DNA of 12,097 bases, from positions 1 to 12,097 of the forward strand of contig JAJZYE010000010.1 in NCBI GenBank assembly GCA_021806055.1, in the 5' to 3' direction. How positions within the stretch are numbered: the first letter of the stretch is position 1; every line of letters starts with the position of its first letter. This DNA comes from Actinomycetes bacterium. GTDB lineage: Bacteria > Actinomycetota > Acidimicrobiia > Acidimicrobiales > RAAP-2. Below are positions 1,292 to 9,985 of this stretch, piece after piece. The position numbers and the translations under genes were made by a program. A model generated the notes under the pieces. That model did not search any database, was not told the DNA's origin, and worked only from the letters and a program-made list of their open reading frames with translations.

Positions 1292-2494
1292 CGCCAGACG
1301 CAGCGGCAGGTGCCGCGGCCCGCGCACCTGGCCGGGGGCCCAGGTGACACCCGCCGGGTCGGCCAGTTCGAAGCGCGGATAGCGAGCGATGAACTCCTCG
1401 AGCGCCACGCGCAGCTCCAGGCGCGCGAGGTTCGACCCGGCACACCGGTGGATGCCCAGCCCGAAGGCCAGGTGGCGGTTCTCACGCCGGTCGATAACGA
1501 AGCGGTCGGCGTCGGGAAACACGGCCGGGTCGCGGTTCGCCGCGGGAAACCCGAGCAGGATCCAGTCGTCGCGCTTCATCGGGCAACCGAGGTAGTCGAC
1601 GTCCTCCTTGACCAGGCGGGCCATCGACACCGGCGCGTAGAAGCGCAGGAACTCCTCCACGGCCGTAGCCATGAGCTCCGGCTCGCTCGCGAGCCGCGCG
1701 AGGTCCCCGGGGTTCGTGGCGAGGTGCCACAGCGACGCCCCGATGGCGGACCACGTCGTATCGATGCCGGCCACCAGGATCAGGATCATCGTCCCGAAGA
1801 CGTGCTCGGGCGCGAGCCTCTGACCGCCCACCTCGACGGTGAGCAGGTACGTCGTGAGGTCGTCGCGCGGGTGCGCGCGATGATCCTCGATCTGGACGGC
1901 GAAGTACTCCTCGATCGGTGCGAACTGCTCGATGCGCTGCTCCACCGGTTGATCGATCCCCTCGAGCACCACGTGAACGAACTCGCGGAAGAGGTCCTCG
2001 TCGCGCTCGGGAAAGCCCAGCATGCGGATGATGACCGCCGGGGGGATGAACTGGGCGAACTCGCTGCCCGCATCGATCTCACCGCGCCCCGCCAGTGCGT
2101 CGAGCAGCCGACGACACAGCGCGCGGATCATCGGCTCGAGCGCGTTGACCGGCCCGGGAGCGAAGGCCGGCAGGATGAGGCGGCGCGCGATCTGGTGGAA
2201 CGGCGGATCCGACGAGATCGGTGGGGCCACCCCGATTGGGGCCGGGGGGGCGTCCTCGAGCGGGCGCCCATTGCCGATCACCACGGTGCGACTGGTGAAG
2301 TGCTCGGTGTCCTTGGCGACGCGCGACACCGCGTCGTGGGTGGTCGGGAACCATCCGCCGCCGTAGCGCTCGGTGTGCGCGACCGGGCAACGCCGACGCA
2401 AATCATCCCAGATCGGGTAGGGATCAGCCACCCAACGCGGGTCGGTGTGGTCCCAGTCCGTGGCGAAGTCGCGAACGGGCACCTTGTCACTCAC
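1277..2494 (-). CDS. Cytochrome P450
   Basis: This 405-residue protein has the normal length of a soluble bacterial P450 and no signal or anchor helix. Hallmarks in order: a C-helix segment around residues 96-112 (DPPFHQIARRL), the I-helix AGIDTT at 242-247 with the oxygen-activating Thr, the K-helix ExxR as E281-x-x-R284, and the heme loop FGLGIHRCAG with Cys351 as thiolate ligand. It should catalyse an NAD(P)H- and O2-dependent mono-oxygenation using electrons from the ferredoxin encoded just upstream. The substrate is not readable from sequence and I do not assign a CYP family. I chose the GTG at 2494 because it forms a 4-base GTGA overlap with the ferredoxin stop. The open frame continues to 2713, but that part lies out of frame over the ferredoxin and has arginine-rich shadow composition. 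No reductase gene is in the window. Confidence 0.95.
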   Translation of the reverse strand: MSDKVPVRDFATDWDHTDPRWVADPYPIWDDLRRRCPVAHTERYGGGWFPTTHDAVSRVAKDTEHFTSRTVVIGNGRPLEDAPPAPIGVAPPISSDPPFHQIARRLILPAFAPGPVNALEPMIRALCRRLLDALAGRGEIDAGSEFAQFIPPAVIIRMLGFPERDEDLFREFVHVVLEGIDQPVEQRIEQFAPIEEYFAVQIEDHRAHPRDDLTTYLLTVEVGGQRLAPEHVFGTMILILVAGIDTTWSAIGASLWHLATNPGDLARLASEPELMATAVEEFLRFYAPVSMARLVKEDVDYLGCPMKRDDWILLGFPAANRDPAVFPDADRFVIDRRENRHLAFGLGIHRCAGSNLARLELRVALEEFIARYPRFELADPAGVTWAPGQVRGPRHLPLRLASREG

Positions 2495-2697
2495 GTCGAC
2501 TCCTCCAGCGACACCGCGTGCTCCGGGCAGTTCGCGACCGCCAAGCGTGCCGCGTCGAGGTGGGTCTCGTCCACGGTCCCGTCGCCGCGCACCACGCCGT
2601 TGCCCAGGTCGTCGAAGGCGAAGAGTTCCGGGGCCAGCGAGAAGCACCGGCCGTGCCCCTGGCACTGGTCGACGTCGATCGAAACCCTCACGGTCAC
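2491..2697 (-). CDS. Small 3Fe-4S type ferredoxin, P450 partner
   Basis: This 68-residue acidic protein has a single iron-sulfur cluster motif: C12-x2-H15-x2-C18 and a later C57-P. Three cysteines with a non-cysteine residue in the second position is the pattern of the [3Fe-4S] ferredoxins that feed electrons to actinobacterial P450s; here that residue is His, as in several mycobacterial P450 ferredoxins. The gene lies directly upstream of the P450 and its TGA overlaps the P450 GTG, so the two are almost certainly co-translated. I use the GTG at 2697; a GTGAGG-like ribosome site lies about 10 bases upstream, and a second GTG two codons later is a less likely alternative. The cluster type is inferred from the ligand pattern. 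Confidence 0.92.
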   Translation of the reverse strand: MTVRVSIDVDQCQGHGRCFSLAPELFAFDDLGNGVVRGDGTVDETHLDAARLAVANCPEHAVSLEEST

Positions 2698-6314: not shown

Positions 6315-8456
6315 TCAATCCAGTGTCAAGGGTGCGTCCACGTCGAGGTCCAATGAGCCACCGACCACGTCGGGTGCCAGTGCCTCAGCCAGGTGCTCGC
6401 GCACCCGGCCGTCGATCTCGGCCATCAGCTGGGGGTTCTCACGTAAGAACGTCTTCACGTTCTCGCGACCCTGGCCCATCTGCTCCCCTTCGTAGGTGAA
6501 CCACGCGCCCGCCTTCTTCACGAAGCCCAACTCGACCGCGACGTCCAGAACCGACCCCTCACGGCTGATGCCTTGGCCGTACATAATGTCGAACTCGGCC
6601 TGCTTAAAGGGTGCGGCGCACTTGTTCTTCACCACCTTTACACGCGTACGGTTCCCGACCACCTCCGTGCCGTCCTTAATTGATTCGATGCGCCGGATGT
6701 CCAGGCGAACCGACGCGTAGAACTTCAGCGCACGGCCACCCGGCGTTACCTCGGGCGAATTGTGAACCACCACCCCATCAACGAGGTAGTTATGTGATCC
6801 CTCGACTTCAATATCAAATCGATGCGTCGAACGAGTAGGGGGCTTACGGTGAATATCGATCACGGGCGTCGCCACGAGTTCGTAGCGCATCGGCTCAGTC
6901 ACCGGCTCCACTCCGAACATTCCCCAAAAGCGTGGAAGCAACTTGTCCTGCATACTTGGGTGTACGAACGGGGCAATGAGCGTCTGCAGCTTCAGCGACT
7001 CCGCAGTGGGGAACACGAGAACCGCCTTCTTCCCCTTTACGTTCTCCCGTAGCTCCGGTCGTATATTCCACGTGCTCGCCAAATGGGATCGCACCCGCTC
7101 ACGCGTCGTCGGCTCCATCGCCTCGACGATGATCTCCACCCACTCGCTTCCACCGGCGATCCGGTCTTGGAGGTCCTTCGACTGCACACGAAGGCTGGCG
7201 TTATCCATGTACCACAGCGCGAGCGACAGTGGGGTAAGTTCCTTCAAATAGTCGTCATCAAAGACCTTCTTGCCATCCCGGTACACGGAACGCCGCAGGT
7301 CGGCCAATTCTGGCAGCGGTGAGAAGTCGTACGTCACACCGCCGTCGCCGCGTACGAGACGAGAGCAGCCGACATTCTCGAAGAGAGAGGCCTTCCACTC
7401 TGCGTACGCAGTCTGCGTCGGGCCGTGGGTGTAGCGCAAACGTGCTCCATACCCACTCCTCGTTGACGAGACGGATCCATCTCCCATCAACGTGCCTCGC
7501 AGCGCCTCCCACTGGAATCGTGACAGGTAGTACGGAAGCGCTTGCATCACGTTCTCACCGACGGCGAGGTCCTTGGCTTCCGTCCATCCCTGGGGGGTCC
7601 GAACCAGGTGGTTCGGCGTCGCGGCGAACTGTGCACGTCCATTGCCCATGGGCTTGGCGACGGTGATCTGAAGGAACTCGTCCGTCGTACCATTGTCGAA
7701 CCAATTCACGACCTTCTTCGGAACAACCGCACCAACCCTGTGATCGTACGAGAGGACGTCAACAGGGAGCCGCTGCGTCACGATCTTGCCGATCTTCTCC
7801 GTTGAGCCGTCGGCCAGTACCACCCGGGTGTCGTAGGAGAAGCATCCGTAGATGACGCCGATCTTCTCGCGCAGCTGATTGATGAACACGGCGACCGTGT
7901 TGGACTTGGACAGCCCGCCGGTCAACTTGCGCAGGGCCTGACTCATGAGACGCGCCTGCAGCCCGACGTGCGAGTCGCCCATGTCACCCTCGATCTCCGC
8001 TCGGGGCGTCAAAGCCGCCACGGAGTCGATGATGATGACGTCGAGGGCCCCCGAGCGGATCAGCATGTCCGTGATCTCGAGTGCCTGCTCCCCCGTGTCG
8101 GGCTGACTGATCAGCAGGTCGTCGACGTTCACCCCAATAGCCCTCGCGTACACCGGGTCCATGGCGTGCTCCGCGTCAATGTACGCGCAGACCCCGCCGT
8201 TGCGCTGTGCCTCGGCGACCACGTGCATCGCGAGAGTCGACTTACCCGACGACTCGGGCCCGTAGAGCTCGACGATCCGTCCGCGCGGCAGGCCCCCGAT
8301 CCCCAGGGCCATGTCCAGGGCGAGAGCGCCCGTCGCGATGGACTCGATGTTCATGTGCAGGTTCTCGCCCAGGCGCATGATCGAACCCTTGCCGAACTGC
8401 TTCTCGATCTGGCCCAAGGCCGCGTCGAGGGCCTTTGCGCGATCGTCGGTTGCCAT
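6315..8456 (-). CDS. recA: Recombinase RecA, precursor containing an in-frame intein
   Basis: The 713-residue precursor consists of RecA residues 1-204, a 362-residue intein (205-566) and RecA residues 567-713. The spliced product would be 351 residues, normal for RecA. It forms filaments on single-stranded DNA, drives strand exchange and stimulates LexA self-cleavage. Walker A is GPESSGKST (66-74), Walker B is VIIIDS with D144, and loop L1 lies around 154-165. The intein cuts loop L2 between IYG204 and S567-PEVTPGG, so the unspliced protein should be unable to bind DNA normally. The +1 Ser replaces the Asn usually found in FGNPE. The ATG at 8456 is preceded by AAGGAG with a 6-base spacer, which rules out the longer frame up to 8561. 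A promoter with an SOS box lies upstream. A basic or acidic C-tail ([13 protein letters not shown]) is typical. RecX is not encoded next to it. Confidence 0.98.
6759..7844 (-). mobile_element. RecA intein with LAGLIDADG endonuclease domain (second motif degenerate)
   Basis: This is a 362-codon in-frame insertion. Splicing residues, numbered in the precursor: block A starts with nucleophile C205 ([19 protein letters not shown]), block B has T280-P-N-H283, block F spans about 547-560 ([15 protein letters not shown]), and block G ends VVVH565-N566 before extein S567. The central part carries a two-motif LAGLIDADG homing endonuclease. Motif 1 is LRGTLMGDG (319-327), with the expected Asp and Gly at positions 8 and 9. 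Motif 2 is LALWYMDNA (412-420), where these two positions are Asn and Ala. From memory, length, insertion site and sequence match the M. leprae RecA intein and not the M. tuberculosis one, which sits before CSPPFK further downstream. Splicing should be functional; DNA cleavage is doubtful. Sample lines show far lower G+C here than in the exteins, a sign of acquisition. Confidence 0.97.
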
Positions 8457-8532: not shown

Positions 8533-8561
8533 AGGCTACTACGAACACCTGTTCGTAGCAA
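8533..8561 (-). promoter_or_regulatory. Predicted recA promoter
   Basis: On the minus strand TTGCTA (8561-8556) and TAGCCT (8538-8533) are separated by 17 bases, giving an expected start near 8526 and a leader of about 70 bases before the recA ATG. Four of six -35 bases and the T-A-n-n-n-T pattern of the -10 match. The SOS box fills exactly the spacer, which makes the assignment more credible. A second candidate -10 (TAACGT nearer the gene) lacks a good -35. Confidence 0.5.
8539..8558. promoter_or_regulatory. LexA-binding SOS box
   Basis: CTACGAACACCTGTTCGTAG is a perfect inverted repeat with 8-bp arms and a 4-base centre. The core CGAAC-N4-GTTCG is the LexA box known from Bacillus and mycobacteria. 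It lies about 83-102 bp upstream of the recA start and overlaps the proposed -35/-10 spacer, so LexA should block RNA polymerase until DNA damage activates RecA. Confidence 0.88.
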
Positions 8562-8734: not shown

Positions 8735-9964
8735 TCAGTCGACCATCGCCTGGTACACGAGTTGCTGGAGCTCACGGCGCAGAGGGTACGTTCCGCTCGG
8801 GAGGAGCTGGGTGTAGAAGGCCACAGAGACCGCGCGCACCGGATCCACCCAGAATGCGGTCGACGCGGCGCCACCCCACCCGTAGGTTCCTTCACTGACC
8901 AGGCTCTTGTTGCGGCGGGGGTCGGTCACGACCGACACGCCGAGCCCGAAGCCGATCCCCGCGAAGTCCACCTCGGCGAACGAGTCCATCGCCACCGCCG
9001 CCAGGTCGACGCCACCGGGCAGGTGGTTGGCGGTCATGAGGGCCACGGTACGCGGCGACAGGATTCGTGCATCGTCGAGCACACCACCGCGCAGGAGCAT
9101 CGTCATGAAGCGCTGGTAGTCGTGGGCGCTCGACACGAGGCCGCCACCACCGCCCAATACCCCCGGTCGGTGCTGCGCGCCGCGCGCGAGGTCGGCGAAG
9201 GGCAACGAGTCGCCCTCGTTGGGCACGTACAGCATCGCCAAGCGGTCCTGGTTGTCTTCGGGACAGAACCAGTCGGTATCCGCCATGCCGAGCGGGTCAA
9301 GGACGCGCTCGCGCAGGAACTCATCGAGGGGCTGGCCGCTCCACAGCTCGATGAGCCGCCCCAGCACGTCGGTCGCCACCGAGTAGTTCCACCGGCTACC
9401 CGGTTGGAAGAGCAGGGGGCTCGTGCACCAGTCGTGGACCGCACGCTCGAGGTCCGCGTCGCGTGGATAGCCGAAGTCGTATCCCTTGGCCCGGTAGATG
9501 GCGTCGACCGGGTGCATGTAGTTGAATCCGTAGGTCAGCCCGCTCATGTGCGTGAGCAAGTGATGCACCCGCACCGGCTCAACGGCGGGAACGCTCTGGG
9601 GCGCCGTCGGCGGACCGCCGACGTACACCCGTGGCTCGCGCAGCTCGTCGATCCACCGTCCCACGTCATCGGTGAGATCGAAGAGGCCCTCCTCGTAGAG
9701 CGTCAGCGCCGCCACCGTGGTGAGGGGCTTGGTCATCGAGTAAATGCGCCAGATGGTGTCATCGGTGACCGGCAGGTCCTGCTCGCGATGGCGATGCCCG
9801 CCTCGTCCCGTCCACACCAGGTCACCCTCACGAGCCAGCGTCACCAGCCACCCAGCTAGTCGCCGGTCCTCGACGTAGGCGTCGAAGTGCGTACGAATCC
9901 GCTCGAGGCGACGCGGGTCGAACCCGGCCTCCGTCGGGTCTCGGCGCACCTCCAGTGTCGTCAC
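8735..9964 (-). CDS. Serine hydrolase of the beta-lactamase (class C / family VIII esterase) fold
   Basis: The 409-residue protein has no signal peptide, so it is probably cytoplasmic. The catalytic SxxK is S76-M-T-K79, the second motif is Y194-S-V, and W363-G-G stands in the place of the KTG/HTG triad, as in EstB-like esterases. Other family segments are HHLLTHMSGLTYGF (about 134-147) and GGGLVSSAHDYQRF (273-286). The class includes carboxylesterases, D-aminopeptidases and penicillin-binding-like enzymes, and few are true resistance enzymes; an esterase role is most likely, with unknown substrate. I chose the GTG at 9964 because GGGAGG lies six bases upstream; a TTG two codons earlier would fall inside that spacer. 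It follows cinA by 21 bp, so it appears to be the last gene of the rimO-pgsA-cinA unit, although a link to those functions is not evident. Confidence 0.9.
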   Translation of the reverse strand: MTTLEVRRDPTEAGFDPRRLERIRTHFDAYVEDRRLAGWLVTLAREGDLVWTGRGGHRHREQDLPVTDDTIWRIYSMTKPLTTVAALTLYEEGLFDLTDDVGRWIDELREPRVYVGGPPTAPQSVPAVEPVRVHHLLTHMSGLTYGFNYMHPVDAIYRAKGYDFGYPRDADLERAVHDWCTSPLLFQPGSRWNYSVATDVLGRLIELWSGQPLDEFLRERVLDPLGMADTDWFCPEDNQDRLAMLYVPNEGDSLPFADLARGAQHRPGVLGGGGGLVSSAHDYQRFMTMLLRGGVLDDARILSPRTVALMTANHLPGGVDLAAVAMDSFAEVDFAGIGFGLGVSVVTDPRRNKSLVSEGTYGWGGAASTAFWVDPVRAVSVAFYTQLLPSGTYPLRRELQQLVYQAMVD

Positions 9965-9985
9965 GCGCAACCTCCCGACCCGACA

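Follow-up and report, generated by a model that had tools for sequence, protein, structure and literature searches.

We analyzed a 12,097-nucleotide stretch of DNA, referred to here as the window, which comprises positions 1 to 12,097 of contig JAJZYE010000010.1 (GenBank assembly GCA_021806055.1) from a metagenome-assembled genome (MAG) labeled Actinomycetes bacterium. Its minus strand carries a recA gene that is interrupted by an intein. The residues expected for splicing are in place, whereas one of the two catalytic aspartates of the nested endonuclease is replaced by asparagine, and the element probably no longer spreads. The features of the gene are as follows.

6315..8456, minus strand: recA precursor gene, 713 amino acids plus stop, ATG at 8454-8456 (reading frame and profile matches)
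7845..8456, minus strand: RecA N-extein, 204 amino acids, with the P-loop GPESSGKS and the last residues KIGVIYG (profile matches, alignment)
6759..7844, minus strand: intein, 362 amino acids, with the class-1 residues Cys1, TPNH, His-Asn and Ser+1 (intein models, alignment)
7539..7844, minus strand: N-terminal splicing (HINT) part, intein residues 1-102, boundary approximate (TIGR01445 over residues 1-83; structure model)
6930..7538, minus strand: nested LAGLIDADG endonuclease domain, intein residues 103-305, boundaries approximate
7476..7484, minus strand: endonuclease motif 1, Gly-Asp-Gly, intein residues 121-123; Asp122, aligned with I-SceI D44, is intact
7200..7202, minus strand: Asn215 (AAC) within motif 2 (ALWYMDNAS), in the position of I-SceI Asp145 (profile alignment)
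6759..6929, minus strand: C-terminal splicing part, intein residues 306-362, last residues VVVHN (TIGR01443)
6315..6758, minus strand: RecA C-extein, 147 amino acids plus stop, first residues SPEVTPGG (profile matches, alignment)

The flanking parts are RecA. TIGR02012 matched with 540 bits (cut-off, 325), and together with the Pfam models RecA (PF00154) and RecA_C (PF21096) it places the RecA core and the C-terminal domain in one frame. In precursor numbering, RecA comprises residues 1-204 and 567-713, and the intein comprises residues 205-566. Because the frame runs for 714 codons with no inner stop and joins both halves of RecA, its reading excludes a chance origin. A whole-precursor AlphaFold model had a predicted local distance difference test score of 69.5, with residues 567-634 below 50, and was not used.

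All of the class-1 splicing residues are present, namely, Cys1 (TGC, 7842-7844), T76-P-N-H79, D344 of block F, H361-N362, and Ser at position +1. Two curated intein models scored above their cut-offs (TIGR01445, 48.1 versus 24.5 bits; TIGR01443, 24.7 versus 15.6 bits). A preliminary description of the window, made from its letters, had proposed a 362-codon in-frame insert with Cys at its start, a TxxH motif, and His-Asn followed by Ser, cutting RecA between IYG and SPEVTPGG. This was confirmed, with every one of these residues read within 6759-7844. The break follows the residue aligned to position 204 of Escherichia coli RecA chain 1n03_A (aligned over positions 4-204), which we take to lie in DNA-binding loop L2 (presumably residues 195-209 of the E. 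coli protein). Both junctions are the same by pattern in 119 of the 120 homologues listed, which were the ones used out of 4838, and in all 47 loci read, the window's included, the insertion immediately follows the Gly of IGV(M/I)(F/Y)G, with Ser at +1. Judged by its residues and junctions, the insert is a class-1 intein at the Mycobacterium leprae RecA site, and the nearest matches lie at that site, as the earlier allele call had implied. Subtraction of the insert (713 - 362) leaves a spliced RecA of 351 residues, the length foreseen. It is reasonable to suppose that RecA is active only after splicing.

A catalytic aspartate missing from the endonuclease

The LAGLIDADG fold is present in the window intein, and profile alignment to I-SceI shows that the first catalytic Asp is retained (Asp122) and that the second is absent, with Asn215 in its place. 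This loss was not part of the preliminary description. The Asp is near universal at this position: across 245 distinct inteins it occurs at residue 215 in 231, at residue 122 in 234, and at both in 223. (The count was taken apart from the split intein of genome G182 [L020/L028], L139, the weak matches L022-L027, L029, L030, and P0113, and three incomplete members of the window's genus, G002, G004, and G036.) According to the available text of PMC3928301, the D145A variant of I-SceI is fully defective in cleavage.

Asn215 also occurs in a near twin of the window intein, P0003 (representing 14 clustered sequences), with five differences elsewhere. In the next relatives (P0004-P0006 and L175 from genome G634; 82% identity), Asp215 is retained and residue 122 is Ala or Val. 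Two sister lineages therefore bear different lesions.

Occurrence and descent of the allele

The window's genus provides most of the comparison. Matches to the intein at an E value of ≤0.001 were found in 19 of its 99 genomes, and 16 of these 19 carriers have a full-length intein. Both catalytic aspartates are kept in 13, and one is lost in 3 (the window, G634, and G032). A further carrier, G004 (L257), has the same allele with an in-frame 35-residue gap that deletes motif 1, the first catalytic motif; the intein of G036 is disrupted by a stretch of N, and that of G002 stops at a contig end. Full-length, intein-free RecA is encoded by 68 genomes of the genus. A tree of the exteins (83 rows, made up of 15 of the 19 carriers and the 68 intein-free genomes; the other 12 of the 99 genomes have no or partial RecA) calls for at least 10 changes in intein presence, 7 of them forced by well-supported branches, compared with a mean of 14 after shuffling. 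Gains could not be distinguished from losses on this tree. One intein-free RecA (L224, from G635) forms a three-row clade with those of the window and G634. Outside the genus, the same RecA site is occupied in three members of another actinobacterial family, f75, by mini-inteins 166-170 residues long with no endonuclease (L258, L259, and L260, from G547, G457, and G369).

Silent-site divergence of intein and exteins was compared for six pairs of genomes. Between the window and G634, the intein value of 0.68 (0.55-0.85) is higher than the extein value of 0.46 (0.36-0.60), with overlapping intervals. Since the intein value does not fall below that of the exteins, it gives no hint of transfer since the two lineages split. 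In G637-G033, both of which keep the two aspartates, the intein is lower (0.046 [0.019-0.072] versus 0.140 [0.093-0.191]), with separate intervals, and the same is true of G637-G631 (0.078 versus 0.179). The intein is also lower in G631-G033 (0.082 versus 0.130) and is higher in G030-G021 (0.187 versus 0.131), with overlapping intervals in both cases. Only G637-G033 and G637-G631 clearly favor, by their divergence values, spread after the hosts had split. In G032-G033 the intein is higher with separate intervals (0.562 versus 0.299), an excess for which inteins of different origin or biased codon usage in recA may account.

In 5 of the 68 intein-free RecAs of the genus (L212, L242, L247, L252, and L254), Asn or Thr replaces Ser at +1, and Asn there should be incompatible with splicing. 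Relative to the other intein-free RecAs, these five are placed somewhat closer to intein-bearing rows (mean, 0.29 versus 0.43; permutation P = 0.06). At this P value, site immunity through a change at +1 remains a lead.

Beyond the genus, the same threshold gave matches in 18 of 198 genomes sampled from the class and in 46 of 396 sampled from the phylum. Some of these, 6 in the class set and 10 in the phylum set, have E values above about 1e-6 and could represent other inteins; E values below 1e-100 were obtained for 31 of the 46 phylum matches. A scan with the intein alignment, using one genome per species, returned 395 relatives. The best 80 of these share the N-junction in all cases and the C-junction in 79 as read, and they include Mycobacterium, Mycolicibacter, Nocardia, Rhodococcus, Skermania, and Hoyosella as well as Micromonospora, Amycolatopsis, Saccharopolyspora, Saccharomonospora, and Streptosporangiaceae. 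Among the matches listed, the nearest named proteins are "recombinase RecA" of Acidimicrobiales or Acidimicrobiaceae, several of them at about 70% identity, and it is on these that we call the host Acidimicrobiales-like. By the matches as a whole, public data already contain the M. leprae-site allele far outside the mycobacteria. Thus, of the initial interpretation, the intein and allele calls stand, and the idea that a nonmycobacterial host would extend the range of the allele finds no support as news at the sequence level. In the literature, titles and abstracts (mostly not full text, and hence a weak negative) mentioned no RecA inteins of Acidimicrobiia and no survey of this allele beyond mycobacteria.

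Several other occurrences were noted. The same allele is found in RecAs of MAGs labeled Acidobacteriota or Acidobacteria (P0102 and L102), which indicates either a wider host range or mislabeled MAGs. One RecA precursor, P0027, contains a pair of inteins: the first occupies the M. leprae site, and the other follows later in the chain, at VKNK|C. A search for such pairs in 136 loci (122 readable) found two (L035 and L056), in which only the start of the second intein was read; in P0122, a second intein begins and the frame runs out. Additionally, 35 loci on viral contigs match the intein alignment. Their full-length matches are 23-32% identical, L152 excepted, which lies on viral contig IMGVR_UViG_3300015360_000121 and reaches 70% identity to the alignment in its best segment. 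These loci are known from intein matches and not from host proteins, and no conclusion was drawn about phage as a vector.

With respect to the surroundings of recA, the same-strand genes upstream include cinA and a pgsA-like gene encoding a CDP-alcohol phosphatidyltransferase domain, and a gene for a beta-lactamase-family (PF00144) protein (8735-9970, minus strand) lies between cinA and recA. Elsewhere in the window, a small ferredoxin-like gene (2491-2697, minus strand) immediately precedes a cytochrome P450 gene (1277-2713, minus strand) and likely forms a redox pair with it. One further feature belongs to recA itself.

8542-8555, no strand assigned: palindrome CGAAC-N4-GTTCG, perfect, 86 bases ahead of the recA start codon and the sole match in the window

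A match of this kind arose in 3 of 200 shuffles, and we take the palindrome to resemble the actinobacterial LexA (SOS) box.

Interpretation and comparison with known inteins

Taken together, the data probably describe a class-1 intein at the M. leprae site that still splices, with an endonuclease that is probably dead, in an element that is no longer spreading. Cys1 would attack the Gly-Cys bond, the chain would pass to Ser+1, and Asn362 would cyclize with the assistance of His361, so that the exteins would join across the DNA-binding loop. Splicing would be preserved because RecA is needed, and the 351-residue protein would therefore still be produced. The nested endonuclease resembles I-SceI and lacks one of its two catalytic aspartates; consequently, cutting of the empty recA site and, with it, spread have probably ended. 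The element would then be in the decay phase of the homing cycle and would be inherited vertically. The homing cycle is an established model in the available text of PMC3229294 and PMC8966425, and degenerate endonucleases are already known in inteins.

Several observations weigh against this reading. The Pfam model Intein_splicing (PF14890) scored 32.9 bits, slightly below its cut-off of 35.8. Relative to the Ala variant examined in I-SceI, Asn is a milder change, with which weak or single-strand cutting might persist. The ratio of nonsynonymous to synonymous divergence (dN/dS) of the endonuclease between the window and G634 is 0.18, well under 1, and therefore the domain is not in free drift; the constraint may come from a role in folding or splicing. 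Silent sites in recA are possibly held back by codon bias, which makes the finding that the intein is no lower than the exteins weak support for vertical descent. Faster endonuclease evolution was not found on the terminal branches of 9 lesion-bearing compared with 64 intact inteins (Mann-Whitney P = 0.50). This test used endonuclease and splicing partition branch lengths on a fixed tree of 73 inteins, and three of the nine lesion-bearing rows are near-identical members of one lineage with branches of about zero, P0004 being a fourth such row. Given this result, we do not claim a generally relaxed rate. Conserved endonuclease columns do deviate more often in lesion-bearing inteins than in the others (median, 6.5 versus 1 of 64). 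However, conserved splicing columns deviate likewise (median, 4 versus 1 of 71; P = 1.5e-6), which means that the excess extends beyond the endonuclease, and shared ancestry is not accounted for in the P values for column deviation.

Some of these points would fit an intein that is still mobile, in which Asn215 leaves enough double-strand cutting or nicking for gene conversion and homing. The endonuclease domain is full length with a confident structure model, Asp122 and Asp214 are kept, and the domain is constrained as described above. The patchiness of the allele in the genus and the at least 10 presence changes also agree with movement. Against these stand the conservation of Asp215 in 231 of 245 inteins, the inactivity of I-SceI D145A, and window-G634 silent sites without a sign of recent transfer, and we regard continued mobility as unlikely.

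Alternatively, after the loss of mobility the intein may have been domesticated as a damage-gated maturation switch that splices only upon single-stranded DNA (ssDNA) or another stress cue, such that RecA matures upon damage. The intein lies in the DNA-binding loop, the gene has an SOS-box-like palindrome, and splicing residues are retained where an endonuclease Asp has been lost. A precedent is known in the ssDNA-activated splicing of the RadA intein of Pyrococcus horikoshii, a RecA-family protein, as described in the available text of PMC5790916. Still, 68 genomes of the genus do without the intein, among them the close relative G635, and, if precise deletion is rare, the intein would be retained in any case. 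We consider a switch improbable. If it were true, a comparative test would be possible in this genus, whose species include intein-bearing, endonuclease-lesioned, and intein-free forms. Finally, a dead gene or an assembly artifact, in which the Asn or the insert is a MAG error or RecA is not made, is very improbable: the MAG is fragmented (1.41 Mb, 274 contigs, 69% complete) and a sibling intein is broken by a run of N, yet the frame is intact, P0003 shares Asn215 despite its five other differences, the exteins are strongly constrained (dN/dS, 0.014 versus G634), and this is the single RecA found in the genome's contigs.

The element that we prefer to see as a splicing, probably immobile intein is ordinary in itself, being a known allele on a well-populated branch, and its value is comparative. 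At a single recA site in one genus of uncultured Acidimicrobiales-like bacteria, inteins are apparently mobile, point lesioned, partly deleted, or absent, and in another actinobacterial family that position is occupied by endonuclease-free mini-inteins. Close relatives would thus allow the stages of the homing cycle to be tested. The case also raises the question of why a seemingly immobile insert is kept in a central DNA repair protein.

Among known systems, the RecA intein of M. leprae TN (L091) is inserted at the same site to the residue (KIGVMFG|CMNYSTRV...VMVHN|SPETTTGG), an allele that we take to be the one named RecA-b in the intein literature. It resembles the window intein in its class-1 splicing residues, its LAGLIDADG domain, and its length (365 versus 362 residues). 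The two are 52% identical and differ in motif 2, which reads MDDG in M. leprae and MDNA in the window, and in host, that of the window being an Acidimicrobiales-like MAG. PI-MtuI, the RecA intein of Mycobacterium tuberculosis (2imz and others), has the same host protein and, in a fold comparison over Foldseek's own candidates, the same splicing fold. It matched the window intein with 49.5 bits over the splicing parts only, and its insertion point differs from that of the window and is presumably VKNK|C, where P0027 has its second intein; the earlier choice of the M. leprae site over that of M. tuberculosis was thereby borne out. I-SceI and I-WcaI are free-standing intron enzymes with both aspartates, whereas the window intein has Asn at the second. 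A parallel in decay is the P. horikoshii VMA intein, whose endonuclease lacks the catalytic Asp residues according to the available text of PMC8966425. It is found in a different host protein and site; the active-site residues of both motifs are gone, and one motif is truncated. In contrast, the window intein has lost a single Asp in an endonuclease domain of full length.
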